A DNA stretch of 59,805 nt from Collimonas silvisoli (lineage in GTDB: Bacteria > Pseudomonadota > Gammaproteobacteria > Burkholderiales > Burkholderiaceae_D), in assembly GCF_018305005.1 (NCBI RefSeq), contig NZ_JAGQEG010000031.1, forward strand, positions 1 through 59,805. The letters run 5' to 3'. Shown here one piece after another: positions 35,330-52,869 of this stretch. The translations under genes and the position numbers were made by a program. Numbering within the stretch: the stretch's first letter is position 1; every line of letters starts with the position of its first letter. The notes beneath the pieces are model-generated. The model was not told where the DNA came from and ran no database searches. It saw only the letters and a program-made list of their open reading frames with translations.

Positions 35330-35359
35330 GATGGTCTGAGGCTGCAAACTAATGCAAAC

Positions 35360-35393
35360 TAAAACGGCGACGCCTTGCTCAAGGAGTCGCCGT
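35360..35393 (-). terminator. Terminator after the Anbu gene
   Basis: On the minus strand ACGGCGAC and GTCGCCGT enclose a further CCTTG/CAAGG pair, giving a 13-bp stem with one mismatch, followed by TTTT. It lies 35 bp after the Anbu stop and faces panB. Confidence 0.85.
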
Positions 35394-35427
35394 GAATGCC
35401 GATACGTCGGTTTTCAGTGCTGCTTTT

Positions 35428-36303: not shown

Positions 36304-36430
36304 GATGTCGAAGAAAAATACAAAATGGCGATTTTACAGGAAGCTAAAGCGGTTTCCCGGTCAGATTGAGGTTTTGTGTTGCAGGTGCGACAAGTTATTG
36401 TGAATTAATGTGAACTGCTTATTGAACCCC

Positions 36431-37243
36431 TTATTGCTCCGATGGCAAAGCAGAAACATTGACCTGCACAGTCAGGGTTTCTTCGCCGCCGCCGCGACGC
36501 ACACCGCGCACCGGCGCGGCCGAATCGTAATCGCGCCCAATTGCCAGCCTGCAATAATTGTCGCTGGCAAAACATGCGTGGGTCACGTCGATGCTAAGCC
36601 AGCCGGCAAAATCGCTGTCCTGCACCCAGACATCGACCCAGGCATGGCTTTCGGCATGGCTGGTATTGCCGGGATCGATATAGCCAGACACATAGCGCGC
36701 CGGGATACCGGCTATGTGACAGCAAGCCAGGAACAAATGCGCATGATCCTGGCACACCCCCTGGCCCAGCGCCAGCGCATCGTCGGCGCTGCTGGTGACG
36801 GCGGTGGAGCCGCCTTGATAGGCGACAGCAACACAGATAGCTTGTGCCAGATCCAGCAGTTGTTTGCTGCCGGCGCCCGCGCACAGATTCCGATGCGCAA
36901 AATCCATCACGGCGGCGGTAGCCTGCGTCAGCTGGGTCGGCACCGTAAATACCAGGGGTGAGAATTCCCCCGCTTGCGGCAGCCGGCCCTGTTGCAGCGG
37001 CGTCACCGCTACCGTGCCTTCGGCGATGATGCGCACCTCAGGGTGGGGTTTGGTGATGGTCAGCATATGGCTGAGATTGCCGAACGCATCGGTGAACGGA
37101 TGACGGCTGCCGGAACTGCTGATCTGCCACGCCAGCGTGCGCTGCTGGGCTTCGGCACGGGGCGTCAGCCGCAGCTGCTGAATCGTGTAAGTCAGCGCTG
37201 CGGTGTAGTGATAAACCGTTTCATGCCGGATGGTCAGTAGCAT
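36431..37243 (-). CDS. Transglutaminase-like cysteine peptidase family protein
   Basis: A 270-residue protein with the bacterial transglutaminase N-terminal region (MLLTIRHETVYHYTAALTYTIQQLRLTP style) and a papain-like transglutaminase core. The catalytic triad is intact: Cys164 in GQGVCQDHAH, His200 in ESHAWVDVW and Asp219 in WLSIDVTH. It may cut or make isopeptide bonds in a peptide product. It lies 6 bp after the alpha-E gene. Two further transglutaminase-like genes of the same kind are encoded at 42581 and 48606. Confidence 0.92.
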   Translation of the reverse strand: MLLTIRHETVYHYTAALTYTIQQLRLTPRAEAQQRTLAWQISSSGSRHPFTDAFGNLSHMLTITKPHPEVRIIAEGTVAVTPLQQGRLPQAGEFSPLVFTVPTQLTQATAAVMDFAHRNLCAGAGSKQLLDLAQAICVAVAYQGGSTAVTSSADDALALGQGVCQDHAHLFLACCHIAGIPARYVSGYIDPGNTSHAESHAWVDVWVQDSDFAGWLSIDVTHACFASDNYCRLAIGRDYDSAAPVRGVRRGGGEETLTVQVNVSALPSEQ

Positions 37244-37249
37244 GTCAGG

Positions 37250-38251
37250 TCAGGTATTGAGGGGCACCAGGAAATCGCGGCTGATCCGGTTGCCGAGCTC
37301 GAAAATGCGCTCGAAGAAACGGGTCAGGTAGTCATGCAGGCCGGCGTCGAGAATTTCATCGAGATTGCTGAATTTCAGGTCGGCGTGCAATTTCCCGGCG
37401 AACCGTTCGGTATCGGAAGACGTGTCGTTGTGCACATGCTTCAGATTGCCGACCACCTGTTCCATGCAAGACAGCAGCGAGCGCGGCATGTCCGGGCGCA
37501 AGATCAGCAGGTCGGCCACGCGGGCCGGGGTGATCACATCGCGGTACACCTTGCGGTAAATTTCAAAACCGGAGACGGAACGCAGAATCGCCGCCCAGTA
37601 GTAGAAATCGATTTGCGGATCGGCGATGGCGTCCTGTTCCTGGCTTTGGCTTTGTTGCTGGCCGTTTTGCAAGCCTTTCTTGTAAGCGCCTTCCTTGGCG
37701 CCATGGAATTTGACATCGATGATGCGCGCGGTGTTGTCAGCGCGTTCCAGGAAGGTGCCCAGGCGGATAAAGTGAAATGCTTCGTCCTTGAGCATGGTGC
37801 CGATGGTGACGCCGCGTGACAGATGCGAGCGATGCTTGACCCACTCGAAAAACTCGCTCGGATTTTGTTCCAGCGCATCGGTCTGCAGATAACTCTGCAT
37901 CTTGATCCAGGTGGCGTTCTGGATTTCCCAGGCTTCGGTAGTCAGCGCGCCACGTACCGCCCGTGCGTTCTCGCGCGCCTGTTTCAGGCAGGAGGCGATC
38001 GAGGACGAATTGCTGGGATCGCGCACCATGAAGTCAATCACGTCTTTTTGCGTGACTACGCTGTATTTCTTGTCGTAGGCCTGGGTCAGTTCGGAAATGC
38101 CGAGGACTGCGCGCCAGCCTTTTTCGACATCTTCGACCGATTGCGGCAGCAAGCCGGTTTGCACGTGCACATCGAGCATGCGCGCGGTATTTTCTGCCCG
38201 CTCGGTGTAGCGGGCCATCCAGAATAAATGATCGGCGGTGCGACTCAGCAT
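37250..38251 (-). CDS. Alpha-E domain protein (DUF403)
   Basis: A 333-residue all-helical protein of the alpha-E family, found beside circularly permuted ATP-grasp enzymes. It begins MLSRTADHLFWMARYTERAENTARML, the family signature, and repeats a similar helix pattern (IRLGTFLERADNTARIID) in the middle. Its biochemical role is unknown; an accessory or substrate-binding role for the ligase has been proposed. Starts one base after the ATP-grasp gene ends, so the two are surely co-transcribed. Confidence 0.92.
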   Translation of the reverse strand: MLSRTADHLFWMARYTERAENTARMLDVHVQTGLLPQSVEDVEKGWRAVLGISELTQAYDKKYSVVTQKDVIDFMVRDPSNSSSIASCLKQARENARAVRGALTTEAWEIQNATWIKMQSYLQTDALEQNPSEFFEWVKHRSHLSRGVTIGTMLKDEAFHFIRLGTFLERADNTARIIDVKFHGAKEGAYKKGLQNGQQQSQSQEQDAIADPQIDFYYWAAILRSVSGFEIYRKVYRDVITPARVADLLILRPDMPRSLLSCMEQVVGNLKHVHNDTSSDTERFAGKLHADLKFSNLDEILDAGLHDYLTRFFERIFELGNRISRDFLVPLNT

Positions 38252-38252
38252 G

Positions 38253-39668
38253 TTATTTCTCCAGAATCCAAGTGTCTTTAGTGCCGCCGCCTTGCGACGA
38301 GTTGACTACCAGCGAGCCTTCCTTGAGGGCGACGCGGGTCAGGCCGCCGCGCACCAGGGAGACATTTTTTCCGGATAGTACAAACGGCCTCAGATCCAGG
38401 TGGCGCGGCGCGATGCCGGACTCGACATAGGTTGGGCAAGCGGATAACGCCAGGGTCGGCTGGGAAATATAACCGTCCGGCTTGGCAATCACGCGCTGGC
38501 GGAAATCTTCGATTTCCTGCTTGGTCGACGCCGGTCCGACCAGCATGCCGTAACCGCCGGCGCCATGCACTTCCTTGACCACCAGGTCCTTGAGATTATC
38601 GAGGGTGTACTGCAAATCCTCTTTCTTGCGGCACTGGAAAGTCGGGACATTGTTGAGGATCGGCTTCTCCGACAGATAGAACTGCACCATGTCCGGCACA
38701 AACGGATATACCGATTTGTCATCGGCAACGCCGGTGCCGATGGCGTTGGCCAGCGTGACATTGCCGGCGCGGTACACCGACAGCAAGCCCGGCACGCCGA
38801 GCGATGAATCGGCGCGGAAGGCGAGCGGATCGAGATAATCGTCGTCGATCCGGCGGTAGATCACGTCGACCCGCTTGGGGCCGCGCGTGGTACGCATGTA
38901 GACCGCGTTATCGCTAACAAAAAGATCCTGGCCTTCGACCAGTTCCACGCCCATTTGCTGAGCCAGGAAAGCGTGTTCGAAGTAGGCCGAGTTATACATC
39001 CCCGGCGTCATCACCACCACGGTCGGATCGGTCACGCCCACCGGCGCCACCGAACGCAGATTATCCAGCAGCATGTCGGGATAGTGATCGACCGGCGCAA
39101 TCTTGTGGCGCAGGAACAGCTCGGGGAACAGCCGCATCATCATCTTGCGATTTTCCAGCATGTAAGACACGCCTGAAGGCACCCGCAGATTATCTTCCAG
39201 CACGTAAAACTCGCCCTGGCCGGCACGCACGATATCAACCCCGGCAATATGCGCATAGATATCCGAAGCGACCGAGATGCCCTGCATTTCGGGGCGGTAC
39301 TGGGCGTTGCGGAAAATCTGTTCAGCCGGTATCACGCCTGCCTTGACGATATTCTGGTCGTGATAGATATCGTGGATGAACATGTTGAGCGCCTTGACGC
39401 GCTGGATCAGGCCGGCTTCGAGTTGCGCCCACTCTTGCGCATGGATGATGCGCGGAATGATGTCGAAGGGGATCAGACGTTCAGTGCCGGCGTCGTTGCC
39501 ATACACGGCGAAGGTAATCCCGACTCGCCGGAAAATCAGGTCGGCTTCAGCGCGTTTGCGGGCGATCGTTTCAGCGGACTGGGCCGCCAGCCAGGAAGCA
39601 AATTCGTCATAGTGCGGACGCACCGACGACTTGCCATCGGAGTACATTTCATCGAAAAAATTTGCCAT
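38253..39668 (-). CDS. Circularly permuted type 2 ATP-grasp protein (DUF404/DUF407)
   Basis: Predicted ATP-dependent carboxylate-amine ligase that could form peptide-like bonds. The 471-residue protein has the family landmarks RLIPFDIIPRII, FYVLEDNLRVPSGVSYMLENR, PGMYNSAYFEHAFLAQQMG, VDVIYRRIDDDYLDP and ANAIGTGVADDKSVYPFVPDM. The C-terminal end RGGLTRVALKEGSLVVNSSQGGGTKDTW is typical. It is the first gene of the Anbu cassette. It is paralogous to the first half of the protein encoded at 46051-48609. Substrate unknown. Confidence 0.93.
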   Translation of the reverse strand: MANFFDEMYSDGKSSVRPHYDEFASWLAAQSAETIARKRAEADLIFRRVGITFAVYGNDAGTERLIPFDIIPRIIHAQEWAQLEAGLIQRVKALNMFIHDIYHDQNIVKAGVIPAEQIFRNAQYRPEMQGISVASDIYAHIAGVDIVRAGQGEFYVLEDNLRVPSGVSYMLENRKMMMRLFPELFLRHKIAPVDHYPDMLLDNLRSVAPVGVTDPTVVVMTPGMYNSAYFEHAFLAQQMGVELVEGQDLFVSDNAVYMRTTRGPKRVDVIYRRIDDDYLDPLAFRADSSLGVPGLLSVYRAGNVTLANAIGTGVADDKSVYPFVPDMVQFYLSEKPILNNVPTFQCRKKEDLQYTLDNLKDLVVKEVHGAGGYGMLVGPASTKQEIEDFRQRVIAKPDGYISQPTLALSACPTYVESGIAPRHLDLRPFVLSGKNVSLVRGGLTRVALKEGSLVVNSSQGGGTKDTWILEK

Positions 39669-39974
39669 AATCTTGCTTTGCTGTGGTTTGATCGGAAACT
39701 ATCAAGTAGCTATCAAGAAGCGTGCCCGTAGCGAGCTGTCAGGAGCTGTTTGTTGCTGTTTGTTGCCGATTTTTTCGCCTGGATTGCTGCTTAAATATTG
39801 CTGATAATATTGCATATTAAGCATCAACTGATTCAAAGACTAACATGCGGTCTTGGTTTTTTTGAATAGGCTTTATTTTCGGCAATGCTACGTCCGCTCT
39901 TAGCAAATTTTGCGTAATCTGGGTGATGGCCTCCGTGATGTTTTGATTGCAAAAAGGTATATATCAAATCTCGC
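39669..39974. other. Intergenic region upstream of the ATP-grasp gene, with a possible gene remnant
   Basis: The half next to the ATP-grasp gene is AT-rich around 39790-39830 and probably holds its promoter. The other half has a minus-strand reading frame (39817-39963, 48 codons) without an ATG or GTG near its start that reads like protein: EAITQITQNLLRADVALP. It could be the tail of a lost gene; no family was recognised. Confidence 0.3.
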
Positions 39975-40418
39975 TCAATCGGCCTGAACCCATGGCGTTG
40001 GCGCCGGCACGGCGCATGGCGCGGGCATATCGATCGAAGTGAATGCCGCCGGGCTAACGATTTCAAGATACTCCATGTCTTTCGAGTAGTCGAATAAAAA
40101 ATGCACGATGCCGGGGCGTTGATGCACGCAGTCGCCGGCTTTAACCAGCGTTTCCTTATCTTCGTACATGAAACGGGCCCAACCCTTGAGCATGTAGACG
40201 ATATGGAAATCGGCTTCATGCCGATGCCAGCCGGTGCCCACTTCCGGCGCCATATTGGCCTTCACCAGATGCGCCACCACCTTGCCGCCGGTGGCGGCGG
40301 CGATGCCGAGATCGCGATACAGGAAGAAATCGCGCAGGCCGCCCGACTGGAATTCAGTGTCGCCTTCACGGACATGGGAGAACAAATTGGTCGAGCTGGT
40401 TTCGGTATTTGTTTCCAT
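39975..40418 (-). CDS. Cupin domain protein
   Basis: A 147-residue single-cupin protein. The metal-binding cupin motif is visible as GWHRHEADFHIVYMLKG, with two His, a Glu nearby and a third His, and the second motif as GDCVHQRPGIVHFLF. It has no signal peptide. Function cannot be predicted beyond a small-molecule-binding or metal-dependent beta barrel. It is followed by an unrelated gap and lies 45 bp after the GST gene on the same strand. Confidence 0.85.
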   Translation of the reverse strand: METNTETSSTNLFSHVREGDTEFQSGGLRDFFLYRDLGIAAATGGKVVAHLVKANMAPEVGTGWHRHEADFHIVYMLKGWARFMYEDKETLVKAGDCVHQRPGIVHFLFDYSKDMEYLEIVSPAAFTSIDMPAPCAVPAPTPWVQAD

Positions 40419-40463
40419 CGCAGCTATCCTTTTACAGTGACAGTGGGCTAAGTGAGCAGCCTC

Positions 40464-41117
40464 TCAAAATTCTACATCCAGTTCATTGATATCGTCCGGC
40501 TCCAGCTTGGCGGCGTTGACCCATTCCTGCATTTCCGGCATCGCCATGATGCGCTTGCAATAGGCGCTGCAGACCGAATCCAGTTTCACATCGTAAGTCA
40601 GGAAACGGCTCGCCACTGGCGCATACATGGCGTCGGCCATTGAGCGTTCGCCAAACAGGTACGGTCCGCCATAGGTTGCCAGGCATTGTTTCCAGATGGT
40701 GGTGATGCGCTTGATGTCGGCCTCGGCACGCGACCATACCTTGAAGTCGGGGAAGTGCGCCTTGATGTTCATCGGCAGCGCCGAGCGCAGGGCGCTGAAG
40801 CCGGAATGCATTTCGCCGCAGATCGAACGGCAGTGGGCGCGCGCGGCGCGATCCGCCGGCAGCAGCCCGGCCTTGGGCCGGATTTCGTGCAGATATTCAC
40901 CGATGGCCAAGGTATCCCACACCACGATATTGCCGTGATACAGGCAGGGCACCAGGATCGACGACGACAGCAGCAGGATTTCGGCGCGCGCATCCGGATC
41001 GTCCGGCGAGATCGGGTTCTCCTGGAATTCCAGACCGGAGAATCTGGTCATGAGCCAGCCGCGCAACGACCATGACGAATAGTTTTTACTGGTAATGCTC
41101 AAAGTGGTCTTAGGCAT
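40464..41117 (-). CDS. Glutathione S-transferase family protein
   Basis: A 217-residue GST-like protein. The thioredoxin-like N-terminal domain starts TLSITSKNYSSWSLRGWLMTR, where a Ser of NYSSWSLR is the likely glutathione-contact residue, and the helical C-terminal domain carries YLFGERSMADAMYAPVASRF. This N-terminal form is typical of a GST group common in betaproteobacteria. The start MPKTTLS was preferred to an upstream alternative that would lengthen the protein beyond the family. Substrate unknown. Confidence 0.9.
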   Translation of the reverse strand: MPKTTLSITSKNYSSWSLRGWLMTRFSGLEFQENPISPDDPDARAEILLLSSSILVPCLYHGNIVVWDTLAIGEYLHEIRPKAGLLPADRAARAHCRSICGEMHSGFSALRSALPMNIKAHFPDFKVWSRAEADIKRITTIWKQCLATYGGPYLFGERSMADAMYAPVASRFLTYDVKLDSVCSAYCKRIMAMPEMQEWVNAAKLEPDDINELDVEF

Positions 41118-41259
41118 GGCAATATTCTTCCGTATTGGATCGAAAGTGTTTTTGATTGGCAAACCGTTTGATGACTACTGAGCAAGGGTCGTGCCAGAGA
41201 TATGGGCATGGATATTGCACCAGCAATGTTTGCCTGCACTCCAATAACAGGGTAGTACC

Positions 41260-42492
41260 ATGACGAAAATTTACCAGGCATATCAGGGCTATGCGGATTT
41301 CAGCGATCCGATGCGCTTACTCGCTGGCACCGCTGCACCATTGTTGAGCTATCGCTGGCCGGGCTGGCCGGACAGTCTGATGCTGCGCAAGCTGGCTGCG
41401 GCCTGCGAAGTGTTTTCATGCACCCAGTTGACGCACCAGCGCCCTGCATTCGGGATAACTAGCGTGGCGGAAAATGGCTGCACGATTTCGGTGCATGAAG
41501 AGGTGGCCGACCAGACGCCGTTCTGTACTTTGTTGCGTTTCCGCAAGGAAACTGAGGTGGCGCAACCACGCGTGTTGTTGATAGCGCCGATGTCGGGACA
41601 TTTTGCCACCTTGTTGCGCGGTACCGTCAGCACGCTCTTGCGCGATCACGATGTCTATATCACCGATTGGCACAATGCCCGCGATGTCGCCCTCAGCGAC
41701 GGCCGTTTCGGCTTTGACGAATATGTCGCCCATCTGATCCGCTTCATCGAAAAGATCGGCCCCGGCACGCATCTGGTGGCGGTCTGCCAGCCGACCGTAG
41801 CGGCGCTGGCGGCGGTGACGCTGATGGCAGCCGAACAGCATCCGGCGCAACCCGCCAGCATGACCCTGATGGCCGGCCCGATCGATACCCGCATCAATCC
41901 GACTGCGGTCAATGAGCTGGCGAAAAGCAAGCCGATAGAATGGTTCGAAAGCAATCTGGTGAGCACCGTTCCCTGTCGTTTCGTCGGCAGCCAGCGTCAG
42001 GTCTATCCCGGCTTTCTGCAACTGAATGCCTTCATGAGCATGAATCTGGAACGGCACCTCAAAGCCTTTCAAAACCTGTACAACTATCTGGTCGACGGCG
42101 ACGATGAAAAAGCCCATGCCATCAAGATCTTTTACGCCGAGTATTTCTCCATGTCGGATCTGGCCGCAGAGTTTTACCTGGAAACCGTACAGAGCGTGTT
42201 CCAGGATCATGCGTTGCCGCTAGGGGAATTGCAGGCGTTAGGGCGTACCATAGAACCGGCGGTGATCCGCCGCACCGCATTGTTTACCGTAGAGGGGGAG
42301 AGGGATGATATCTGCGCGGTAGGCCAGACCGTGGCCGCCCAGGACATGTGCAGCGGCATACGGCCGTATATGAAGACGCATCATGTGCAAATCGGGGTCG
42401 GTCATTACGGTGTGTTCAACGGCCGCCGCTGGGACAATGAAATTTATCCGCGTTTGCGCGATTTCATCCATAGTCACCATCAATATCAATGA
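41260..42492 (+). CDS. phaZ: Intracellular polyhydroxybutyrate depolymerase
   Basis: Breaks down stored poly-3-hydroxybutyrate inside the cell. The 410-residue alpha/beta hydrolase has the family's unusual nucleophile Cys in place of Ser, in LVAVCQPTVAAL, the segment VYITDWHNARDVAL and a C-terminal GVGHYGVFNGRRWDNEIYPRLRDFI with the catalytic His. This shows the organism stores PHB; the synthase genes are not here. It lies between the two ligase cassettes, with no clear functional link. Confidence 0.95.
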   Translation: MTKIYQAYQGYADFSDPMRLLAGTAAPLLSYRWPGWPDSLMLRKLAAACEVFSCTQLTHQRPAFGITSVAENGCTISVHEEVADQTPFCTLLRFRKETEVAQPRVLLIAPMSGHFATLLRGTVSTLLRDHDVYITDWHNARDVALSDGRFGFDEYVAHLIRFIEKIGPGTHLVAVCQPTVAALAAVTLMAAEQHPAQPASMTLMAGPIDTRINPTAVNELAKSKPIEWFESNLVSTVPCRFVGSQRQVYPGFLQLNAFMSMNLERHLKAFQNLYNYLVDGDDEKAHAIKIFYAEYFSMSDLAAEFYLETVQSVFQDHALPLGELQALGRTIEPAVIRRTALFTVEGERDDICAVGQTVAAQDMCSGIRPYMKTHHVQIGVGHYGVFNGRRWDNEIYPRLRDFIHSHHQYQ

Positions 42493-42580
42493 CGATTTTT
42501 TGTTTTTCTGTTGGTTAATAAAAGTGGCAGCAGCGGAAGTTCATAAGCTGAACGATTATTGATTGTCGCAAAGGATATCC

Positions 42581-45500
42581 ATGTCAATTCACGTAGCACT
42601 CAATCATCTCACCACCTATCGTTACGAGCGCCCGATCAGCCTGGGGCCTCAAATCATCCGCCTGCGGCCGGCGCCGCATTGCCGCACCCGCATCCTCAGT
42701 TATTCGTTGCGGATACTGCCGGAGCCGCACTTCATCAACTGGCAGCAAGACCCGCAGGCCAACTACCTGGCGCGGCTGGTGTTTCCGGAAAAGACCAGCG
42801 AGTTCCGGATCGAGGTCGATCTGGTAGCCGAAATGTCGGTGCTCAATCCCTTCGATTTTTTTCTTGAGCCGTATGCCGAGAAGGTACCGTTTTCCTACGC
42901 GCCGGAATTGCAGAACGAGCTGGAGCCGTATCGCAAGAAACTGCCGCTGACGCCCTTGCTGCAAAAATTCCTGGATCAGGTGCCGCGTGAAAGAATCCGC
43001 AGCGAGGATTTCCTGGTCAGCCTGAATCAGCAACTGGCGCAGATGATCAGCTATACCATCCGCATGGAGCCGGGCGTGCAAACGCCGGAGCAGACCTTAA
43101 GCCTGGGCTCCGGCTCATGCCGCGATTCTTCATGGCTGCTGGTGCAGATACTGCGCTATCTGGGGCTGGCGGCGCGGTTTGTGTCGGGTTACCTGATCCA
43201 GCTGACGGCCGATCAGAAATCGCTGGATGGCCCATCCGGGCCGCAAGCAGATTTCACCGATCTGCACGCCTGGTGCGAGGTGTATCTGCCCGGCGCCGGC
43301 TGGATCGGACTCGATCCCACCTCCGGCTTGTTTGCCGGAGAAGGGCATATCCCGTTGTCATGCACGCCGGAGCCATCCTCGGCTGCGCCGGTCAGCGGCA
43401 TGGTCGAACCATGCGAAGTCAGTTTCGAACACGCCATGAGCGTGCGCCGGATCTGGGAATCGCCGCGCGTCACCAAGCCGTATAGCGAGCAGCAATGGGA
43501 AGAAATCGAAGAACTGGGCCATGCCATCGATGACGATCTGGATACGCTCGACGTCCGGTTGACGATGGGCGGAGAGCCGACTTTCGTGGCGCTCGATCAT
43601 CCCGACGGCGAGGAATGGAACACCGCCGCCATGGGCCCCACCAAGAAACCGCTGGCAGCCGAACTCTATCATCGGCTGCGCCAGCAATACGCGGCGCAAG
43701 GCTTGCCGCATTTCGGCCAAGGCAAATGGTATCCGGGCGAACAGCTGCCGCGCTGGTCGCTGAATTGCTACTGGCGCCGTGACGGCGAGCCGATCTGGGC
43801 CACGCCAGAATTGATCGCCGACGAAACCAAGGAGCAAGCCAGCGATGACAATATCGCCGAACGCTTTCTGCAAGGAGTGGCCGCGCGCCTGACGCTGGAT
43901 CGCCAACACGTATTTGCCGCCTATGAAGACATCTACTATTACCTGTGGCGCGAACGCCGCCTGGCGATCAACGTCGATCCATCCGATGCGCGGCTGGACG
44001 ACAAGCAGGAGCGGGCAAGACTGGCCCGGGTGTTTTCGCAAGGTCTGCGCAAAGTTGCCGGCTACGTACTGCCGCTGGCCCGCACCGCGGATGAACGCGG
44101 CTGGCAAAGCAGCAGCTGGTATTTGCGCGGCGAATACTGTTATCTGCTGCCCGGCGATTCGCCTTTAGGCTATCGGCTGCCGCTCGATTCGCAGCCATGG
44201 GTCAAGAAGGCCGATTATCCGTATGTGCATCAGCCGGATCCGAGCCAGCAATTCGAGCCGTTGCCGATTGCCCGGCAAATCCGCCAGCAACTGGCAACCC
44301 CGGCCTCTGTTTCTGCCGCCGTCAAGGCAACCGCGGCGGATGTACCGAAATACAGCACGGCCTTCAGCAGCGAAGCACAGGCCGTACCCGCGCCATTCGA
44401 GTCGGCCGATAAGATTGCCCGCACTGCCTTGTGCGCAGAAGTACGGCAGGGTGTGCTGTACCTGTTCATGCCGCCGCTGGCGCGGCTGGAGGATTACCTG
44501 GAACTGGTAGCGGCGATCGAAGCCACGGCCCAGAGTTTGAAGCAGCCGATGTTGATGGAGGGTTATGAGCCGCCCAACGACCCGCGCCTGGGCAAGTTCA
44601 GCGTCACCCCCGATCCCGGCGTGATTGAAGTAAATATCCAGCCCATGCACAGCTGGAGCGAGCTGGTCGCCAACACCACCTATTTATACGATGTCGCCCG
44701 CGAGACCCGGCTGACCACCGAGAAATTCATGCTCGACGGCCATCATTCCGGCACCGGCGGCGGCAACCATCTGGTGTTGGGCGGCGCTACCACCAGCGAT
44801 TCGCCGTTCCTGCGGCGGCCCGATCTGTTGCGCAGCCTGATCAGTTATTGGCACAACCATCCGGCCTTGTCCTATCTGTTTTCCGGCATGTTCATCGGCC
44901 CCACTTCGCAAGCGCCGCGGGTCGATGAAGCGCGCAACGATGCAGTGGTCGAACTGGAACTGGCGTTTACCGAGATGGACAGGCAACTCGCCGCCGACGG
45001 CTGCGCGCCGTGGCTGGTCGACCGGCTGCTGCGCAATCTGCTGATCGACGTTACCGGCAACACGCATCGCGCCGAGTTCTGCATCGACAAACTGTATTCG
45101 CCCGACAGCAGCACCGGCCGCCTCGGCCTGCTGGAATTGCGCGCCTTCGAAATGCCGCCGCATGCGCGCATGAGCCTGACCCAGCAGTTGTTGCTACGAG
45201 CGCTGGTAGCGCGCTTCTGGAAGACGCCCTACAAGCCGCCGCGCCTGGTGCGCTGGGGCACCGAGCTGCACGACCGTTTCCTGCTGCCGCATTTCATCTG
45301 GCAGGATTTTTGCGATGTGATGGACGATATGCAGCAAGCCGGTTATGGGCTCAAACCGGAATGGTTCGCGCCGCACTTCGAGTTCCGCTTTCCGAAAATC
45401 GGCGACTTCGCCGTCAACGGCATCGCGCTCGAACTACGCACCGCGCTGGAACCCTGGCATGTGCTGGGCGAGGAAAGCCGTTCCGGCGGCAACGCCCGTT

Positions 45501-45928
45501 ACGTCGATTCATCGCTCGAACGTGTACAGGTGAAAGTCAGCGGCATGGCGCCGGACCGCTATGTGCTGACTTGCAACGGCGTGCCGGTGCCGCTGCAGCC
45601 GACCGGCCGCGTCGGCGAGTTTGTCAGCGGCGTGCGCTACCGCGCATGGCAGCCGCCGTCGGCCCTGCATCCGACCATCGGCATCGACTCGCCGCTGACC
45701 TTCGATCTGGTCGATACCTGGAACGGCCGCAGCCTGGGCGGTTGCCAATACCATGTGGTGCATCCGGGCGGGCGCAGTTATGAGACGTTCCCGGTCAATG
45801 CATTCGAAGCGGAAAGCCGGCGTCTGGCGCGCTATTTCCGTCTCAATCACACGCCGGGTGCTATGCAGGTAACTACGCCGATAGCGTCCATCGAGTTCCC
45901 ATTTACGTTAGACTTACGTCACTTCTAA
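42581..45928 (+). CDS. Transglutaminase-like domain fused to DUF2126 putative amidoligase
   Basis: A 1115-residue two-part protein. Residues 1-300 are a bacterial transglutaminase N-terminal region and core with the triad Cys180 (SGSCRDSSW), His229 (DLHAWCEV) and Asp245 (GLDPTSG). Residues from about 324 to the end are DUF2126, a glutamine-synthetase-fold putative amidoligase; visible landmarks are RLTMGGEPTFVALDHPDG, FGQGKWYPGEQLPRWSL and a GGNHLVLGGAT stretch. The start ATG follows AAAGGA; a longer TTG start is less likely. It joins in one chain an enzyme that could form amide bonds and one that could cut or cross-link them. A strong terminator follows, so it may be regulated apart from the next gene. 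Confidence 0.92.
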   Translation: MSIHVALNHLTTYRYERPISLGPQIIRLRPAPHCRTRILSYSLRILPEPHFINWQQDPQANYLARLVFPEKTSEFRIEVDLVAEMSVLNPFDFFLEPYAEKVPFSYAPELQNELEPYRKKLPLTPLLQKFLDQVPRERIRSEDFLVSLNQQLAQMISYTIRMEPGVQTPEQTLSLGSGSCRDSSWLLVQILRYLGLAARFVSGYLIQLTADQKSLDGPSGPQADFTDLHAWCEVYLPGAGWIGLDPTSGLFAGEGHIPLSCTPEPSSAAPVSGMVEPCEVSFEHAMSVRRIWESPRVTKPYSEQQWEEIEELGHAIDDDLDTLDVRLTMGGEPTFVALDHPDGEEWNTAAMGPTKKPLAAELYHRLRQQYAAQGLPHFGQGKWYPGEQLPRWSLNCYWRRDGEPIWATPELIADETKEQASDDNIAERFLQGVAARLTLDRQHVFAAYEDIYYYLWRERRLAINVDPSDARLDDKQERARLARVFSQGLRKVAGYVLPLARTADERGWQSSSWYLRGEYCYLLPGDSPLGYRLPLDSQPWVKKADYPYVHQPDPSQQFEPLPIARQIRQQLATPASVSAAVKATAADVPKYSTAFSSEAQAVPAPFESADKIARTALCAEVRQGVLYLFMPPLARLEDYLELVAAIEATAQSLKQPMLMEGYEPPNDPRLGKFSVTPDPGVIEVNIQPMHSWSELVANTTYLYDVARETRLTTEKFMLDGHHSGTGGGNHLVLGGATTSDSPFLRRPDLLRSLISYWHNHPALSYLFSGMFIGPTSQAPRVDEARNDAVVELELAFTEMDRQLAADGCAPWLVDRLLRNLLIDVTGNTHRAEFCIDKLYSPDSSTGRLGLLELRAFEMPPHARMSLTQQLLLRALVARFWKTPYKPPRLVRWGTELHDRFLLPHFIWQDFCDVMDDMQQAGYGLKPEWFAPHFEFRFPKIGDFAVNGIALELRTALEPWHVLGEESRSGGNARYVDSSLERVQVKVSGMAPDRYVLTCNGVPVPLQPTGRVGEFVSGVRYRAWQPPSALHPTIGIDSPLTFDLVDTWNGRSLGGCQYHVVHPGGRSYETFPVNAFEAESRRLARYFRLNHTPGAMQVTTPIASIEFPFTLDLRHF

Positions 45929-45956
45929 ACAAGCTCGGCTTCATGGCATAGAAGAG

Positions 45957-45994
45957 CCGCAGCGCAACTTTTTTAGTTTGCGCTGCGGTTTTCC
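45957..45994 (+). terminator. Terminator after the DUF2126 gene
   Basis: Perfect 11-bp stem CCGCAGCGCAA / TTGCGCTGCGG with a 10-nt T-rich loop, followed by TTTT. It lies 28 bp after the stop and 57 bp before the next gene of the same cassette. Confidence 0.85.
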
Positions 45995-46050
45995 TCGCCC
46001 TGACGCCAGAGCTTGCATTCAACCATTTCAAGTGACGCAAGCGATCAACT

Positions 46051-48609
46051 ATGTACCAGCGGCTACTCGAAAGTTATCCCGCAGAGGCGGATCGTTACGA
46101 CGAAATGCTGGAACCCGGCGGCCGTCTGCGGCCGCATTGGCGCACTTTGATCGATCAGCTCGAAGGCTTGTCGCCAGAGATTCTGCGGCGCCGTGCGCGC
46201 GAAGTGCGCGAAGCAATTGCCGCAGACGGCGTTACCTACAATGTGTACGCCGATCCGCAAGGCGCCAACCGGCCCTGGGAACTGGATCTGTTGCCGCAGA
46301 TCATCTCCGCCGACGAATGGCAAACCTTGTCCGCCGCGGTAATCCAGCGTGCGCGCCTGCTCAACGCGGTGCTGGCCGATCTGTACGGCCCGCAAACGCT
46401 GCTTTCCGAAGGCTTGCTGCCACCGGCGCTGGTATTCGGCCAGCATGGCTACCTGTGGCCTTGTCGCGGCATTGAACCGCCAGCGGGAATACATCTGCAT
46501 TTGTATGCGATTGACCTGGCGCGTTCGCCGGACGGTCACTGGTGGGTCATGTCGGACCGTACCCAAGGACCGTCAGGCGCCGGTTATGCCTTGCAGAACC
46601 GGCAGATCATGTCGCGTGCGCTGCCGGATATGGTGCGCGACATGCATGTCCAATCGCTGCTGAAATTTTTCCACACCCTGCATGACAGTCTGAGCGCGCT
46701 GGCGCCCGCTGACGGCGAAGCGCCGCTGGTAGTGTTGCTGACGCCGGGGCCGTATAACGAAACCTATTCCGAACACGCTTTCCTGGCGCATACCTTGGGT
46801 TTCCCGCTGGTCGAAGGGGCTGATCTGATGGTGCGCGGCGACATGGTGTATCTGAAAACGCTGAGTGGTTTGCGGCGCGTCCATGCGATCTTGCGGCGGC
46901 TGGACGACGACTATTGCGATCCGCTCGAATTGCGCGCCGATTCCGCCCTCGGCATTCCCGGCCTGGTGCAGGCAGCACGCCTCGGCAACGTGCTGATCGC
47001 CAATTCGCTCGGCAGCGGCGTGCTGGAATCTGGCGCCTTGCACGGTTTCCTGCCGGCCATCTGTCAGCGTTTGCTTGGCCAGCCGCTGGCGCTGCCGGCG
47101 GTGGCCTCGTGGTGGTGCGGCGAAAAACCGGCGCTCGATTACACCCTGGCCAATCTGGAACAGCTGGTGATCATGCCGGCGTTTCCATCGATGCGGATGC
47201 AGCCGGTCTACGGCCACAGCCTGAACGCGCAATCGCGGCAACGCCTGATCGAGAGCCTGCAGGCCCAGCCGCATGCCTACGTGGCGCAGGAATGGGTGCG
47301 CTTGTCGCAGGCGCCGGTATTGTCGCGCAGCGGCGAATATCGTTTGATGAGCCGCGCGGTCAGCTTGCGGGTATTCGTGGTTGCCGCTGCCGACGGCAGT
47401 TATCACGTGATGCCCGGCGGCCTGACGCGGGTTGCACCGCGCCAGCGCAAGGATGTGGTGTCGATGCAGCAGGGCGGCGCCAGCAAGGATGTCTGGGTCT
47501 TGAGCCCGATGCGTCCGGATGTGAGCGACGCGGCTGCGCCGATGGCAGCGCCGCTGGAAGATATCGACGGCCGCCAGAGCGCGTTGGATAGCGCGCTCAA
47601 TATGATCCGCAGCACGGTCGACATTTCCTCGCACGCCGGCGAAAACCTGTTCTGGATGGGCCGTTACGCCGAGCGTTGCGACAATCTGGCGCATCTGCTC
47701 CGGGCCACCCTGCAACGCAGCACCGATCTGCAGGGCGAAGCACGCGAGACTTTCTACCAGCTCTGCGAAATCTGCCGCGGCCTCGGCATTGCTTTGCCGA
47801 GCGCATCGGCGGCAGGACGGCCAACCGTCAGCGCCATGCAACAAGGATTGATTGCCGCCATCGCCGATCCTGTCGCCAGCGTCGGCATTGCCGGCAATCT
47901 GCGGCATTTGCACCATTGCGGTTACCAGGTGCGCGAGCATCTTTCCCTGGACAACTGGCAGGCGCTCAACCGCATGCCCGGCCTGGTGGCAGACGGTAGC
48001 GGCCATGCCGGCGTGACGCCGGCCGCCGCGCTGCATATGCTCAATAACGTGATCCAGGCTTGCGTCGGTTTGGCCGGCCACGCGCTGGACGACATGACGC
48101 GCGACGAAGGCTGGCATTTCCTGATGCTGGGCCGGCATATAGAACGCATGACCCATCTGGCAACCTTGTTCGGCCAGTTCCTGCGGCTGCCGCCGGAGCG
48201 CCAGAACCGGACGCTGCCGTGGCTGTTGGAATCGGCCAACAGCGTGGTCACCTACCGCGTGCGCTATCGGCGTGCGCCGGAATGGCTGCCGGTATTGCAT
48301 CTGCTGGTGTTCGATGTCAGCAATCCGCACGGCATCGCCTTCCAGTTCCATATGCTGGAGCGCTATTTAAGCGATATCGCGGAACAGCTCGGCACGCTCA
48401 GCATGGATACGCCGGCGCATTTGTCAGCCACGTTGCGCGAATTCGAATTGCAAGACCTGAGCCACGATTCCTTGTTTGTGGCCGACGCCCGCGCGCGCCT
48501 GGTGCAACTGATGCGCGACGCTATCGGCGGCGCTTTTTCCTTGTCCGACGAATTGGCGCGCCATTTCTTTACGCCCTTGAACGCGCCGGTCAGCCAGGGA
48601 GTGTCATGA
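46051..48609 (+). CDS. Fusion of circularly permuted ATP-grasp and alpha-E domains
   Basis: An 852-residue protein that joins the two functions encoded separately at 38253-39668 and 37250-38251. Residues about 60-500 are the ATP-grasp part: WELDLLPQIISADEW, WWVMSDRTQGPSGAGYALQNR, PGPYNETYSEHAFLAHTLG, HAILRRLDDDYCDPLEL, and GGLTRVAPRQRKDVVSMQQGGASKDVW-like end. Residues about 528-850 are alpha-E, starting AGENLFWMGRYAERCDN. The fusion shows that these two domains work together. The ribosome binding site is weak. Overlaps the next start by 4 bp (ATGA). Confidence 0.93.
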   Translation: MYQRLLESYPAEADRYDEMLEPGGRLRPHWRTLIDQLEGLSPEILRRRAREVREAIAADGVTYNVYADPQGANRPWELDLLPQIISADEWQTLSAAVIQRARLLNAVLADLYGPQTLLSEGLLPPALVFGQHGYLWPCRGIEPPAGIHLHLYAIDLARSPDGHWWVMSDRTQGPSGAGYALQNRQIMSRALPDMVRDMHVQSLLKFFHTLHDSLSALAPADGEAPLVVLLTPGPYNETYSEHAFLAHTLGFPLVEGADLMVRGDMVYLKTLSGLRRVHAILRRLDDDYCDPLELRADSALGIPGLVQAARLGNVLIANSLGSGVLESGALHGFLPAICQRLLGQPLALPAVASWWCGEKPALDYTLANLEQLVIMPAFPSMRMQPVYGHSLNAQSRQRLIESLQAQPHAYVAQEWVRLSQAPVLSRSGEYRLMSRAVSLRVFVVAAADGSYHVMPGGLTRVAPRQRKDVVSMQQGGASKDVWVLSPMRPDVSDAAAPMAAPLEDIDGRQSALDSALNMIRSTVDISSHAGENLFWMGRYAERCDNLAHLLRATLQRSTDLQGEARETFYQLCEICRGLGIALPSASAAGRPTVSAMQQGLIAAIADPVASVGIAGNLRHLHHCGYQVREHLSLDNWQALNRMPGLVADGSGHAGVTPAAALHMLNNVIQACVGLAGHALDDMTRDEGWHFLMLGRHIERMTHLATLFGQFLRLPPERQNRTLPWLLESANSVVTYRVRYRRAPEWLPVLHLLVFDVSNPHGIAFQFHMLERYLSDIAEQLGTLSMDTPAHLSATLREFELQDLSHDSLFVADARARLVQLMRDAIGGAFSLSDELARHFFTPLNAPVSQGVS

Positions 48610-49541
48610 TGAGCGAGCACACTTACCACATCCGTCACGACACCCATTACGCGTATTCGCAAGCGGTGCGCCTGTCGCATCAGATGCTGCGCCTGACGCC
48701 GCGTTCGCTGCCATGGCAAACCTGCACTTCGCACGGCATCAGCATCACGCCCGAACCGCAGAATCTGCGCATGCTGCTGGATAGTTTCGGCAATCCGATG
48801 CAATCGTTTTCACTGGAAAGCGACCATACCGATCTGCGCGCCCTGGCCGAATCCTGGGTGACGCTGACGCCGCGCCAAATGCCGTCGATTACGCCATCTT
48901 GGGAACAGGCGCGCGCCGCGCTCTCGTACCAAGCCGGCCAATTCCTATTGCCTGACGACTTGGAAGCCACGCGTTATCTATTTGAATCGGCCCATGTGCG
49001 GATCAAACGCGAGCTGCTGGCTTATGCCGCGGAATCGTTTACGCCCGGCTTGCCTTTGCTGGCCGGGATAGAAGCCTTGATGACACGGATCTTCCAAGAG
49101 TTCACCTTCGACCCGCTGGCCACCACCGTCTCCACCCCGGTCACCGAGGTGTTCGCTACCCGCCGCGGCGTCTGCCAGGATTTCGCGCACTTCATGTTGT
49201 CCTGCCTGCGCTCATTGGGTTTAGCGGCGCGCTATGTCAGCGGCTATCTGCTGACCGAACCGCCGCCCGGACAGCCGCGCCTGATCGGCGCCGACGCCTC
49301 GCACGCCTGGGTATCCGTGTATTGCCCCGGCTTCAATGGACAAGCCAGCAGCTGGATCGACGCCGATCCAACCAACGGCATCTTCCCGGACACCAGCCAC
49401 ATCACGCTCGGCTGGGGCCGCGATTTTCTCGACGTCTCGCCCTTGCGCGGCGTACTGATCGGCGGCGGCGAGCAAACCATGGATGTTGCGGTAACGGTAT
49501 TGCCGGCGCATGAGGCGCCGGGGTTTGGGTTTGCGGTTTGA
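48606..49541 (+). CDS. Transglutaminase-like protein
   Basis: A 311-residue protein with the transglutaminase N-terminal region (YHIRHDTHYAYSQAVRLSHQ) and core. Cys190 (RRGVCQDFAHF), His233 (ASHAWVSVY) and Asp254 (DADPTNG) form the expected triad. It ends the plus-strand cassette and starts in an ATGA overlap with the ATP-grasp/alpha-E gene, so it is translationally coupled to it. It is a paralogue of the protein encoded at 36431-37243. Confidence 0.92.
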   Translation: MMSEHTYHIRHDTHYAYSQAVRLSHQMLRLTPRSLPWQTCTSHGISITPEPQNLRMLLDSFGNPMQSFSLESDHTDLRALAESWVTLTPRQMPSITPSWEQARAALSYQAGQFLLPDDLEATRYLFESAHVRIKRELLAYAAESFTPGLPLLAGIEALMTRIFQEFTFDPLATTVSTPVTEVFATRRGVCQDFAHFMLSCLRSLGLAARYVSGYLLTEPPPGQPRLIGADASHAWVSVYCPGFNGQASSWIDADPTNGIFPDTSHITLGWGRDFLDVSPLRGVLIGGGEQTMDVAVTVLPAHEAPGFGFAV

Positions 49542-49627
49542 GGCGGCAGGGGTTTCTTGCCACTATTGAGAGTTTCATAAAACATGAGAAAGCCCGTGCC
49601 CGGTTGCGCCTGACAAACGCAGCTAAC

Positions 49628-49682
49628 TGGGGTCAGAGTGAACTTTCTGCGCGTCTTTTGCAGAAACTTCACTCTGACCCCA
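49628..49682. repeat. REP-like palindrome with GGGGTCAGAGT motif
   Basis: Inverted repeat of 22 bp with one mismatch around an 11-bp loop; the outer part is TGGGGTCAGAGTGAA and its complement. The GGGGTCAGAGT core is widespread in proteobacterial intergenic regions and often linked to REP-associated (IS200-like) transposases. A degenerate copy (CCGACCCCAGA) lies at about 49758-49768. The rest of 49542-50058 holds no convincing gene. Confidence 0.65.
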
Positions 49683-50058
49683 CTTAGCGGGCCACGGAGT
49701 ACCTGCCTTATCGTTAAAAAAGAACAAAGCCGCGTAGTGCGCACTGTCTTTCTCCGACCCCAGATGACTCTGCTGAGCATCAGCTTGCGACTTGTCAATA
49801 GCGAGTCCCTTTTAAATCTGCTGGCGTCTTTCCAGAGGATCACAGCCTTTCACTCTTTGAGAATTTTCTTGCCCTTATTTGGCTTAAATTGCGATACGTT
49901 TGATCAAGCGGACGATGGTGCATCCGCTACGAACCGGGGGTTCGCGACGACTACGATAAGCAAACTTACAACATAAACTGTTTAAGATGTTATAAGGGGA
50001 AATACTGAAATACTCATGCTCCGTGTTATGCCAACTCTACATTGTGAGCTATATAAAA

Positions 50059-50838
50059 ATGACCTTGGTCAAAAAAGTGATTTCAATATGTTTTATAGTT
50101 TTGGGCATGGTCTCGTTCGCGGGGAACGTGGCACTTTATTTTTCCTCAACGTTGAGACTATATATTCCAGGCATGGATAACGCGAACCAATTTTTTGGTT
50201 TGCTCTGCGCGCTAACGTCAGCAATCGGTGGAGTACAGGCGCTAAGAAATAGAATCAGCGCCATTCCAGTATTGTTGGCATCGTGTTTGTTCTATTTTCT
50301 GGGCGCCGCTTATTCAGCATTGAATCAGTACGGAATCCAAGCGTTCTCGATGTTGATGAACGCCTTCTACTACTCGCTGGGAGGCAGAATAATCGGGGCC
50401 GGGATAATCGCGACGCAGTTGATTCGCACGCGCGCAGCGCACTACAGCGAAAAGCCCTCCCACGACCGACCATACCCGAATGAAAAAATAGCGCTTGCTT
50501 GCCTATTGCTATTAATCGGGCTGGTAGAGGCAATTTACACACACCTGCAATTACGCGGATACCCTATACCCGCGTGGCTTCAATTTGGCGCGGCCATCGT
50601 GTTCCTCTTCCTTATTTTTTTCTGGTTTCACAACGACACAAAAACACATGCCTACAAGCGGTCAACATGGCTGGTCGGCGGCATCCTCTGTATGTCGGTT
50701 GTGACCATCCCGTATTATCTGGTGCGTAGCCGAGGGAAAGGGGAAAAGGTAATGGCGCTCATACGATTATGCGGTTTCTTCATGTTGATGCTTATGTCGT
50801 CGCTGATTGGTGACAGCGGAGCGCGCTTCCTTGGCTGA
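50059..50838 (+). CDS. Hypothetical multi-pass membrane protein
   Basis: A 259-residue protein with about seven predicted membrane segments and short loops, from MTLVKKVISICFIVLGMVSF to a C-terminal segment ending GDSGARFLG. A conserved-looking piece TIPYYLVRSRGKG lies near the C-terminus. I recognise no family with known function. The gene is clearly richer in A and T than its flanks and is bordered by a REP-like repeat, so it may have been acquired. The start at 50059 was preferred to a TTG further upstream. Confidence 0.6.
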   Translation: MTLVKKVISICFIVLGMVSFAGNVALYFSSTLRLYIPGMDNANQFFGLLCALTSAIGGVQALRNRISAIPVLLASCLFYFLGAAYSALNQYGIQAFSMLMNAFYYSLGGRIIGAGIIATQLIRTRAAHYSEKPSHDRPYPNEKIALACLLLLIGLVEAIYTHLQLRGYPIPAWLQFGAAIVFLFLIFFWFHNDTKTHAYKRSTWLVGGILCMSVVTIPYYLVRSRGKGEKVMALIRLCGFFMLMLMSSLIGDSGARFLG

Positions 50839-51129
50839 CTTCAGCGTCAGGTTAAATCGAGGCCTGAAACCATGAAATACGGCGGCCGATTACCTTAACC
50901 GTTAGTGGTAATGTTCATTGCGACAGCCGCTAACGGCCAAGAGCGGAAGTTCAAATACGATCGCCGAATGCCTGCTCACCGATCGTGAGCTGCCGTCGGG
51001 ACTAGAAGGCTGGCCAATAACGGGACCGATGATTCTGTATGTCGCTTGTCTGCTTCTCACCAATTTGGCGTCGAAACGAGGAAAATGCCTCCTCAGATTG
51101 GAAGGCAGGACGAAATTCAAGGGGGAAGC
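50839..51129. other. Intergenic region before the KAP-like gene
   Basis: No gene supported. The sequence around 50915-50965 (GCTAACGGCCAAGAGCGGAA) resembles short non-coding repeats scattered in Burkholderiales genomes; this is from memory and uncertain. A strong ribosome binding site AGGGGG lies at the right end. Confidence 0.3.
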
Positions 51130-52869
51130 ATGACACTTAAGGTGACGAAGGAACACTTGGTGCGGTTGCTCGGCGAAGTCGACAACAGCGTTATCGCGTT
51201 ATCAGGAAAGTGGGGCACCGGCAAGACTCATCTCTGGAACGAAGTCAAGAGAGAATCGAGCGATGATAAGCTCAAGAAAGCGCTTTATGTGTCGCTATTT
51301 GGGCAGTCGAGCATTGACCAAGTGAAAAGAAAGCTCATCGAGTCGTCCGTCCCTGTCATTGAATCGCACAGCGGCGCTTTTGACGCGTTGAAGCAGCTTT
51401 TTCGGATCGGCGTAAAGGTCGGCTCTGAGCACTACAAGGCATTAGCGGCAGTCAACGACCTCAATTTGCTGTTGATGGCCCCAGTGGTGCTGCGAAACTC
51501 CGTCATCGTCCTTGACGACATCGAGCGCAAGCATGACAAGCTAGGCATTGACGAGGTGCTTGGCTTCATAGACGAGTATTCGACTCAGTATGGCTCCCGC
51601 TTCGTCCTAGTTCTCAATGACGATCAGCTTGCCAATCAAGAGTTGTGGAAGACCTTTCGTGAGAAGGTTATCGACCAAGAGCTCAAGCTGGCCACGACGC
51701 CGGAGGAGGCGTTCGCCATCGCGATCGAGTTGACGCCTTCGCCATACGCAGATGCGCTCAAACGGGCGTTGATCTCATGCCAGCTGACCAACATTCGCAT
51801 CGTCGGAAAGGTCATCAAGGCCACCAATCGCATCTTGGATAATCGCCAGCTGGACGAGGCAACCATCGCTCGAGTTGTTCCGTCAATCGTCTTGTTTTCG
51901 GCAATATATTACAGGGGCTTGGAGGACGGTCCGGATTTTCAGTTCGCTTTGAACACCGGATCTCCCGACTGGTCGAACATCGCCAGGGACAAGAACAAGG
52001 AGCCCACCGAAGAGGACAAGCGTAAGGACAGTTGGAGACTGCTCATGCAAGATTTGGGCATCCATGGCTGTGATGAATTCGAGGCGGTACTGGTCGAATT
52101 CTTGGAGTCTGGACTGTTCGACGCCGGCAAGATCGCTACGATCATAGACGGCTACATCGCCGAGAAGCAGAACTTGGAAGCCAGGGAGATGGCCAACCAG
52201 TTCCTGTTCAAGGTCTTCTGGGATTACCGCGTCGACGACACTCAGTTGGTTGTCGAGGCCGCCGCGCTTCCGAAGATTGCTGGAATGCTAGATCCGTTCG
52301 TGGCCTCGGAGCTGGATCAGGCGTTGGCAACGCTCCCTGGCGGCGAGACCATCGGCAAAGCAATCGTGGATGGTTGGATCGTTGCACTCAGGGATCGGAA
52401 GCTCGAAGAGGTGAACGACGATAACCCGTTCAACCGTCCGCTGCACCCAGCAATCAAGGCCGAGTTCGCCGCGATCAATGCCAACGCCCAAGCTCGGACT
52501 ACTGTCTTGGATGCGTGCATGCACATCATCGAGAGCGGCGGGTGGGGTACCATGCAGGAAGTGGCCATGAAAAGGGCCACCGCTGCCGATTTCGAGATGG
52601 CTATTCGCGAGATAGATCTTGATAAGTTACGGCGGTTCATGCGCCACATGATCGAAATGAGGCTTCAAAGGCAAACCTACGACCTGCACTTTGGGACAGC
52701 CACCCAACGCTTCGTCGAGGCATGCAGAGCCATCGCTAACGACGCCGCGTCTCCTCGATTGGCAGGGCTGATCAAGCGCCTCTTCGAGCGAACCGCCATT
52801 GCGTCCGAGCTGGCACTGCAAGAGGCGACGGAGACCGGCGCTGTGGCCAAAGTTCAAACTGGCGAATAG
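51130..52869 (+). CDS. KAP-like P-loop NTPase
   Basis: A 579-residue ATPase with Walker A GKWGTGKT (residues 26-33), Walker B VIVLDDIER (125-133) and a sensor-like LVLNDD (160-165), the pattern of the KAP/STAND group. There are no membrane segments. The rest is helical with no known domain; proteins of this kind are often found in defence or mobile islands. The start follows a strong AGGGGG site and sits right before the conserved N-terminus. Codon use is less GC-biased than in neighbouring regions, and the gene stands alone with non-coding DNA on both sides. Function unknown. Confidence 0.75.
   Translation: MTLKVTKEHLVRLLGEVDNSVIALSGKWGTGKTHLWNEVKRESSDDKLKKALYVSLFGQSSIDQVKRKLIESSVPVIESHSGAFDALKQLFRIGVKVGSEHYKALAAVNDLNLLLMAPVVLRNSVIVLDDIERKHDKLGIDEVLGFIDEYSTQYGSRFVLVLNDDQLANQELWKTFREKVIDQELKLATTPEEAFAIAIELTPSPYADALKRALISCQLTNIRIVGKVIKATNRILDNRQLDEATIARVVPSIVLFSAIYYRGLEDGPDFQFALNTGSPDWSNIARDKNKEPTEEDKRKDSWRLLMQDLGIHGCDEFEAVLVEFLESGLFDAGKIATIIDGYIAEKQNLEAREMANQFLFKVFWDYRVDDTQLVVEAAALPKIAGMLDPFVASELDQALATLPGGETIGKAIVDGWIVALRDRKLEEVNDDNPFNRPLHPAIKAEFAAINANAQARTTVLDACMHIIESGGWGTMQEVAMKRATAADFEMAIREIDLDKLRRFMRHMIEMRLQRQTYDLHFGTATQRFVEACRAIANDAASPRLAGLIKRLFERTAIASELALQEATETGAVAKVQTGE

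Follow-up and report, generated by a model that had tools for sequence, protein, structure and literature searches.

A 59,805-nucleotide stretch of Collimonas silvisoli DNA (NCBI RefSeq assembly GCF_018305005.1, contig NZ_JAGQEG010000031.1, positions 1 to 59,805; hereafter the window) carries a four-gene operon containing Anbu, a proteasome-like N-terminal nucleophile (Ntn) hydrolase, and a second cassette built from the same kinds of domains in another arrangement. This locus raises the question of whether the two cassettes are duplicates, separate pathways or parts of one system. The cassettes are distinct old clades that are inherited together, and we favor, with a probability of about 0.55, the view that they are anciently diverged paralogs serving as modules of one nitrogen-responsive system for peptide ligation. 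Such a system would comprise one catalytic ATP-grasp enzyme, a pseudo-ligase, a ligase of the glutamine-synthetase (GS) fold, transglutaminases and an optional hydrolase. The genes concerned are as follows.

38253 to 39668, minus strand: stand-alone circularly permuted ATP-grasp protein of the first cassette (Pfam; presumed catalytic residues intact)
37250 to 38251, minus strand: stand-alone alpha-E protein of the first cassette (Pfam, 329 bits)
36431 to 37243, minus strand: transglutaminase-like protein of the first cassette (Pfam)
35428 to 36303, minus strand: Anbu, proteasome-like Ntn hydrolase (Thr1, Asp17 and Lys32 by alignment)
42581 to 45928, plus strand: N-terminal transglutaminase-like domain fused to DUF2126, a putative amidoligase of the GS fold
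46051 to 48609, plus strand: circularly permuted ATP-grasp domain fused to alpha-E; the ATP-grasp domain is predicted to be catalytically dead (Pfam; equivalents of E158, N160 and D425 replaced)
48606 to 49541, plus strand: stand-alone transglutaminase-like protein of the second cassette (Pfam, catalytic triad)

The first-pass annotation, made from the letters of the window, had described a second, differently built ligase/transglutaminase cassette 2.9 kb from the Anbu operon, and this description holds. The second cassette (42581-49541, plus strand) consists of the transglutaminase-DUF2126 gene, the ATP-grasp/alpha-E fusion gene and a transglutaminase gene whose start codon overlaps the stop codon of the preceding gene (ATGA). 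The first cassette reads ATP-grasp, alpha-E, transglutaminase, Anbu, and the gene order of the window is common to two Herbaspirillum loci (L165 and L195). Anbu was identified by a profile search (E 1.9e-95, the window's own row being part of the profile), while the Pfam Proteasome match is slightly below cut-off.

This kind of system is not new. Iyer, Abhiman, Burroughs and Aravind reportedly proposed a potential peptide-tagging system in 2009, and its parts are said to be a circularly permuted ATP-grasp, a glutamine-synthetase-like ligase, the Anbu Ntn-hydrolase peptidase, alpha-E and a transglutaminase. The window resembles that system in having permuted ATP-grasp domains (in both cassettes), alpha-E, DUF2126, an Ntn hydrolase and transglutaminases, and in the window the two cassettes stand side by side. 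Structural studies of the Anbu operon have been published (PMC5666114; PMC6376114; these and the other PMC articles cited here are represented by excerpts). The first cassette matches the Anbu operon of Y. bercovieri (PMC6376114) and PP_2685-2688 of P. putida in its four genes and their order; the DUF2126 and fusion cassette is not part of that operon. In B. cenocepacia H111, the cluster I35_5080-5083 encodes DUF404/407, DUF403, a transglutaminase and then a large transglutaminase protein, and the excerpts name no Anbu in it (PMC5491218). Judging by gene order in the Burkholderia locus L221, the large protein is probably the DUF2126 fusion. No paper naming DUF2126 was found in the literature searched, most subscription papers being outside its coverage.

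Phylogeny and co-occurrence of the two cassettes

The proximity of the cassettes could be explained if the Anbu operon had recently undergone local duplication, since the same kinds of domains recur within 14 kb and the two ATP-grasp domains of the window are 36% identical. Phylogeny rules this out. In the ATP-grasp tree (two partial rows of 348 and 230 residues excluded), one branch of length 1.54 with full support in the Shimodaira-Hasegawa-like approximate likelihood ratio test (SH-aLRT 100) parts 86 stand-alone from 43 fused rows. In the alpha-E tree, one branch (SH-aLRT 100) likewise parts 86 stand-alone from 44 fused rows. Because one fully supported branch parts both domain types across the phylum, and the copies of the window each cluster with copies of the same type in other families, the cassettes are not local duplicates, and we regard such an origin as hardly credible. 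The trees are unrooted and were made by a quick method; the placement of single long rows is unsure. The transglutaminase tree gives weak support for the old split: type B forms one clade (support 93), while types N and A require 2 and 4 changes, respectively, and branches are long. Distances among stand-alone copies correlate with distances among fused copies over 43 genomes (Spearman 0.68, with none of 500 permutations equally high; the first stand-alone copy was taken where a genome had two), and fused-copy distances are a median of 1.8 times the stand-alone distances.

Co-occurrence was counted in three samples, all rich in related genomes, which makes the p-values given here too optimistic. 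The phylum sample has 150 genomes, that of the window included, and the order sample has 100, two of which are common to both. The second set consists of 31 of the 80 DUF2126 loci in named contigs, searched as whole genomes; these are 30 of the 46 loci that lack a stand-alone ATP-grasp gene in the examined flank, plus L241. Five loci (L209, L227, L241, L242 and L243) come from records labelled as Verrucomicrobia or members thereof. Dependence on the first cassette was judged by alpha-E alone in the second set and the order sample, and by the ATP-grasp gene as well in the phylum sample.

Across the phylum sample, DUF2126 occurs in 46 genomes, alpha-E in 84 and Anbu in 54. Twenty-five genomes have DUF2126, both alpha-E types and Anbu, and 16 have all of these but Anbu. 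DUF2126 and stand-alone alpha-E are found without the fused copy in three genomes with Anbu and two without it, and three genomes have only fused and stand-alone alpha-E. A further 25 genomes carry stand-alone alpha-E with Anbu, 10 carry stand-alone alpha-E only and one carries Anbu only. Stand-alone alpha-E is thus present in 46/46 genomes with DUF2126 versus 38/104 without it (Fisher p ~1e-15, made too small by relatedness) and in 44/44 genomes with a fused copy. The stand-alone ATP-grasp gene is present in all 46 DUF2126 genomes and in all 44 fused-copy genomes. DUF2126 lies 1.5 to 3.5 kb from fused alpha-E in all 41 genomes with both, and stand-alone alpha-E lies within 10 kb of DUF2126 in 24 of these 41.

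The first-pass annotation had left the choice between old, co-occurring clades and sister branches to phylogeny, and the ATP-grasp and alpha-E trees together with the census show the former. No tendency of the second cassette to occur alone was found. DUF2126 plus the fusion without stand-alone alpha-E was not seen in any of the 41 phylum genomes, both alpha-E types are present in 31/31 genomes of the second set (in L209 the fusion lies outside the DUF2126 locus), and in the order sample, where 50/100 genomes have alpha-E, the stand-alone type is present in 17/17 genomes with the fused type. Types in the order sample were assigned by open-frame length and score; the stand-alone copy of G279, which has a long frame, was assigned by score. 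The fused ATP-grasp/alpha-E copies at L139 (G124), L133 (G114) and L068 (G024), in genomes without DUF2126, are very divergent.

Residues of the fused ATP-grasp domain

Glutamate, asparagine and aspartate residues act as Mg ligands in ATP-grasp enzymes. The presumed counterparts in this family, E158, N160 and D425, are all retained in 118 of 119 stand-alone rows, including that of the window, and none of the three is found in any of 118 fused rows (a 237-row alignment from which two partial rows of 171 and 149 residues were excluded). The sole exception, L189, directly follows a DUF2126 gene and ends two bases before the end of its contig, so that a truncated fused gene is more probable than a stand-alone copy. 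Of 110 columns conserved at 97% or more in 86 stand-alone rows, the 43 fused rows have lost many: E158, N160, D425, R73, D317 and N456 each occur in 0/43, and the GGYG loop is kept in 2 to 5 of 43 rows per column. The motif [LIVM]E.N...P[ST]G is present in 118/119 stand-alone rows and in 8/8 rows of GspS (a separate ATP-grasp family; all eight rows are from the genus of the window), and is absent from all 118 fused rows and from 8968 other mechanical open frames. That the E-x-N motif recurs in GspS and is absent from those other frames supports, without proving, Mg binding by the glutamate and asparagine.

Because the presumed Mg ligands are gone from every fused row, the fused domain is predicted to be catalytically dead and is probably not a second ligase; a reading of the two ATP-grasp domains counted by the first-pass annotation as two ligases is thus not supported. 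The AlphaFold model of the fused protein (predicted local distance difference test score 87.5) has as its best Foldseek match 3n6x, the putative glutathionylspermidine synthase of Methylobacillus flagellatus. The same structure is the solved relative of the stand-alone ATP-grasp protein (E 2.9e-234); it is of the stand-alone type and, unlike the fused copy, retains the EDN motif. Foldseek rows with a probability of 0.05 or less, obtained for the DUF2126 model, were set aside as noise. No paper describing an inactive member of this ATP-grasp family was found in the literature searched, the coverage of which is incomplete.

The fused copy is nevertheless constrained. Forty-eight columns are conserved at 95% or more in 43 rows, and two of these, a W and a G that follows two columns later, occur in no stand-alone row. 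Nearly every row of either type also retains the two ER motifs of alpha-E. K365, the presumed ATP lysine, survives in 62 of 118 fused copies (6/43 plus 56/75), and hence ATP binding may persist. Both the conserved columns and K365 would fit two separate pathways that travel together, in which the second cassette is an enzyme set of its own whose ATP-grasp has an altered chemistry, sharing at most its regulation with the first. The placement of DUF2126 more than 10 kb from stand-alone alpha-E, or on another contig, in 17 of 41 phylum genomes is also consistent with separate pathways. However, stand-alone alpha-E was present wherever the second cassette occurred in the samples, and all three presumed metal ligands are lost throughout the fused rows, so that we consider separate pathways rather improbable. 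If the fused protein is instead a non-catalytic partner of the stand-alone pair, this would explain why it was never found without that pair.

Anbu, transglutaminases and Peptidase_Mx

Anbu terminates the first cassette in many genomes, and in 11 of the 28 genomes with both it lies 1.1 kb or less from DUF2126. These are L010, L014 and L015 (G076, G036 and G064) and G002, G010, G018, G026, G030, G053, G057 and G061. Among genomes with DUF2126 and the fusion, Anbu is present in 25/41 of the phylum sample and 14/31 of the second set (absent from 16/41 and 17/31). Among genomes with stand-alone alpha-E, it is equally common without DUF2126 (25/38) and with it (28/46; Fisher p 0.66). Anbu is therefore an optional hydrolase that shifts between contexts, and a single peptidase required by both cassettes, as the first-pass annotation can be understood, is not supported. 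One form of the scheme suggested there would be two linked steps run by two active ATP-grasp ligases that share a peptidase. Co-occurrence and the old split fit such a scheme, but the presumed catalytic residues are missing from the fused ATP-grasp, and Anbu from many of the genomes concerned, which makes it unlikely.

The catalytic Cys, His and Asp of the transglutaminases are found in 145, 146 and 145 of 146 domains, respectively. No transglutaminase gene was found between alpha-E and Anbu in the Herbaspirillum loci L165 (3263-6842) and L195 (3393-7037), where the transglutaminase of the second cassette could serve the first. Extra, very divergent transglutaminase-like genes stand beside stand-alone cassettes at L121:9393 and L106:7946.

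Peptidase_Mx (PF15887) was considered as a substitute for Anbu and rejected, as it is found in 4/18 DUF2126 genomes without Anbu versus 12/28 with Anbu. Even so, it tends to accompany the system: of the 23 sampled genomes carrying PF15887, 22 have alpha-E. A protein with a zinc ribbon and Peptidase_Mx often adjoins the cassettes (L212:9559-10707 and ten other genomes). The genome of the window has no match to Peptidase_Mx.

Regulation and proposed role

Upstream regions were scored against the consensus patterns of sigma54 and NtrC sites, a sigma54-like site being one with at least 10 of 12 matching positions; the counts cover genes with 250 bp or more of sequence upstream. Such sites lie upstream of 45/122 stand-alone ATP-grasp genes and 44/126 DUF2126 genes, compared with 1/57 Anbu genes, 7/119 fusion genes and 23/538 other predicted genes. 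On the opposite strand, the counts are 7/122 and 19/126 (the cassettes are often divergent), and block-shuffled copies gave a mean of 2.2 sites. At least one site is present in 22/43 and 12/36 family groups.

The genes and sites between the two cassettes of the window are the following; the three genes are candidate members only.

39975 to 40418, minus strand: cupin-domain protein between the glutathione S-transferase (GST) gene and the first cassette (Pfam)
40464 to 41162, minus strand: GST-like protein upstream of the first cassette (Pfam)
41181 to 41196, minus strand: sigma54-like site matching at 12/12 scored positions, between phaZ and the GST gene and upstream of the latter
41204 to 41219, plus strand: weaker sigma54-like site facing phaZ, 10/12 by hand count
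41260 to 42492, plus strand: phaZ, intracellular polyhydroxybutyrate (PHB) depolymerase immediately upstream of the second cassette

The 12/12 minus-strand site is also present in Herbaspirillum L165 and L195, and plus-strand sites face phaZ there as well (12/12 in L165, 11/12 in L195). Through the divergent sites at 41181-41219, nitrogen control might possibly extend to the GST and the PHB depolymerase. No sigma-70-like promoter was found in 35000-50500 versus 7.4 expected in shuffles, and NtrC-like palindromes in the whole window number 37 versus 26 expected. Four of these palindromes (1-3 mismatches) fall within about 160 bp (41334-41495) in the 5' part of phaZ, a group noticed post hoc. 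Adjoining the second cassette, positions 50023-52869 have a lower GC content (0.51) and encode a KAP-family P-loop protein and a weak seven-transmembrane match below cut-off; this stretch could be an insertion.

Expression data from other bacteria point to a nitrogen response. In B. cenocepacia, I35_5080-5083 are down in an ntrC mutant (log2 -6.0 to -9.4) and are listed as common sigma54 and NtrC targets (PMC5491218). In P. putida, PP_2685 and PP_2688 are up (log2 4.4 and 4.0) with nitrate versus ammonium (PMC8050072), and PP_2686-2688 are up 11- to 15-fold in the wild type under nitrogen limitation (PMC7801951 Table 2). The two P. putida data sets disagree on Anbu, which is induced in PMC8050072 and hardly induced in the wild type of PMC7801951. 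Nitrogen control in C. silvisoli itself is inferred. The responses are compatible with our preferred reading. They also fit a protein-turnover role, itself compatible with that reading, in which proteins would be tagged by the ligases and transglutaminases and degraded or untagged by Anbu during nitrogen starvation. Hypotheses of this kind appear in PMC6376114, but the same excerpts report that Anbu had no peptidase activity on the substrates tried, and Anbu is optional; such a role is conceivable though doubtful.

Several observations weigh against one nitrogen-responsive system. No sigma54-like site (at least 10/12) was found within 500 bp of the first gene of either cassette in the window, and 21/43 and 24/36 family groups have no such site at either start. 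In P. putida, PP_2685 (Anbu) rises only 1.12-fold in the wild type, and an rpoN mutant still induces PP_2686-2688 14- to 20-fold (PMC7801951 Table 2), which speaks against strict sigma54 dependence in that species; urtABCD, attributed to NtrC, likewise stay induced in the rpoN mutant, and the excerpts name no DUF2126 gene for nitrogen limitation (PMC7801951). In pull-downs, none of the other proteins of the Y. bercovieri operon interacted specifically with Anbu (PMC6376114, excerpts). Five phylum genomes have DUF2126 with no fused alpha-E detected, and G024, G114 and G124 have a fused copy without DUF2126. The roles of E158, N160 and D425 are drawn from likeness to the GspS motif, the general chemistry of ATP-grasp enzymes and a weak hhalign alignment (E 0.26), and the retention of K365 counts here as well. 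In favor of one system are an intact ATP-grasp whose dead-looking twin was not found without it, the mobility of Anbu and the absence of a transglutaminase from the first cassette in two Herbaspirillum loci, and therefore one system is preferred.

In the system as proposed, the stand-alone ATP-grasp/alpha-E pair would be the sole catalytically competent ATP-grasp unit. The second cassette would contribute the GS-fold amidoligase-transglutaminase fusion, a further transglutaminase and the pseudo-ATP-grasp/alpha-E fusion, whose most likely role is substrate binding, or scaffolding or regulation of the active pair. Each of the active ligases (ATP-grasp and GS-fold) would create an amide bond on a small peptide or protein tag, possibly as two linked steps of one pathway. 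The transglutaminases may attach, cross-link or release the peptide or tag, and Anbu would act as the optional hydrolase. More tentatively, the fused protein may be a conserved pseudo-ligase in an obligate hetero-complex with the stand-alone pair, the product of which would be handed to the GS-fold ligase and transglutaminase in an assembly line turned on by nitrogen starvation, and Anbu would be an interchangeable hydrolase in it.

Many of the genomes sampled carry Anbu, alpha-E or DUF2126 (54, 84 and 46 of 150, respectively), and a known substrate was not found for them in the literature searched. A single competent ATP-grasp, its apparently dead twin and a nitrogen signal would narrow this genomic puzzle to which protein is active, what its binding partners are and what product is made under nitrogen starvation.

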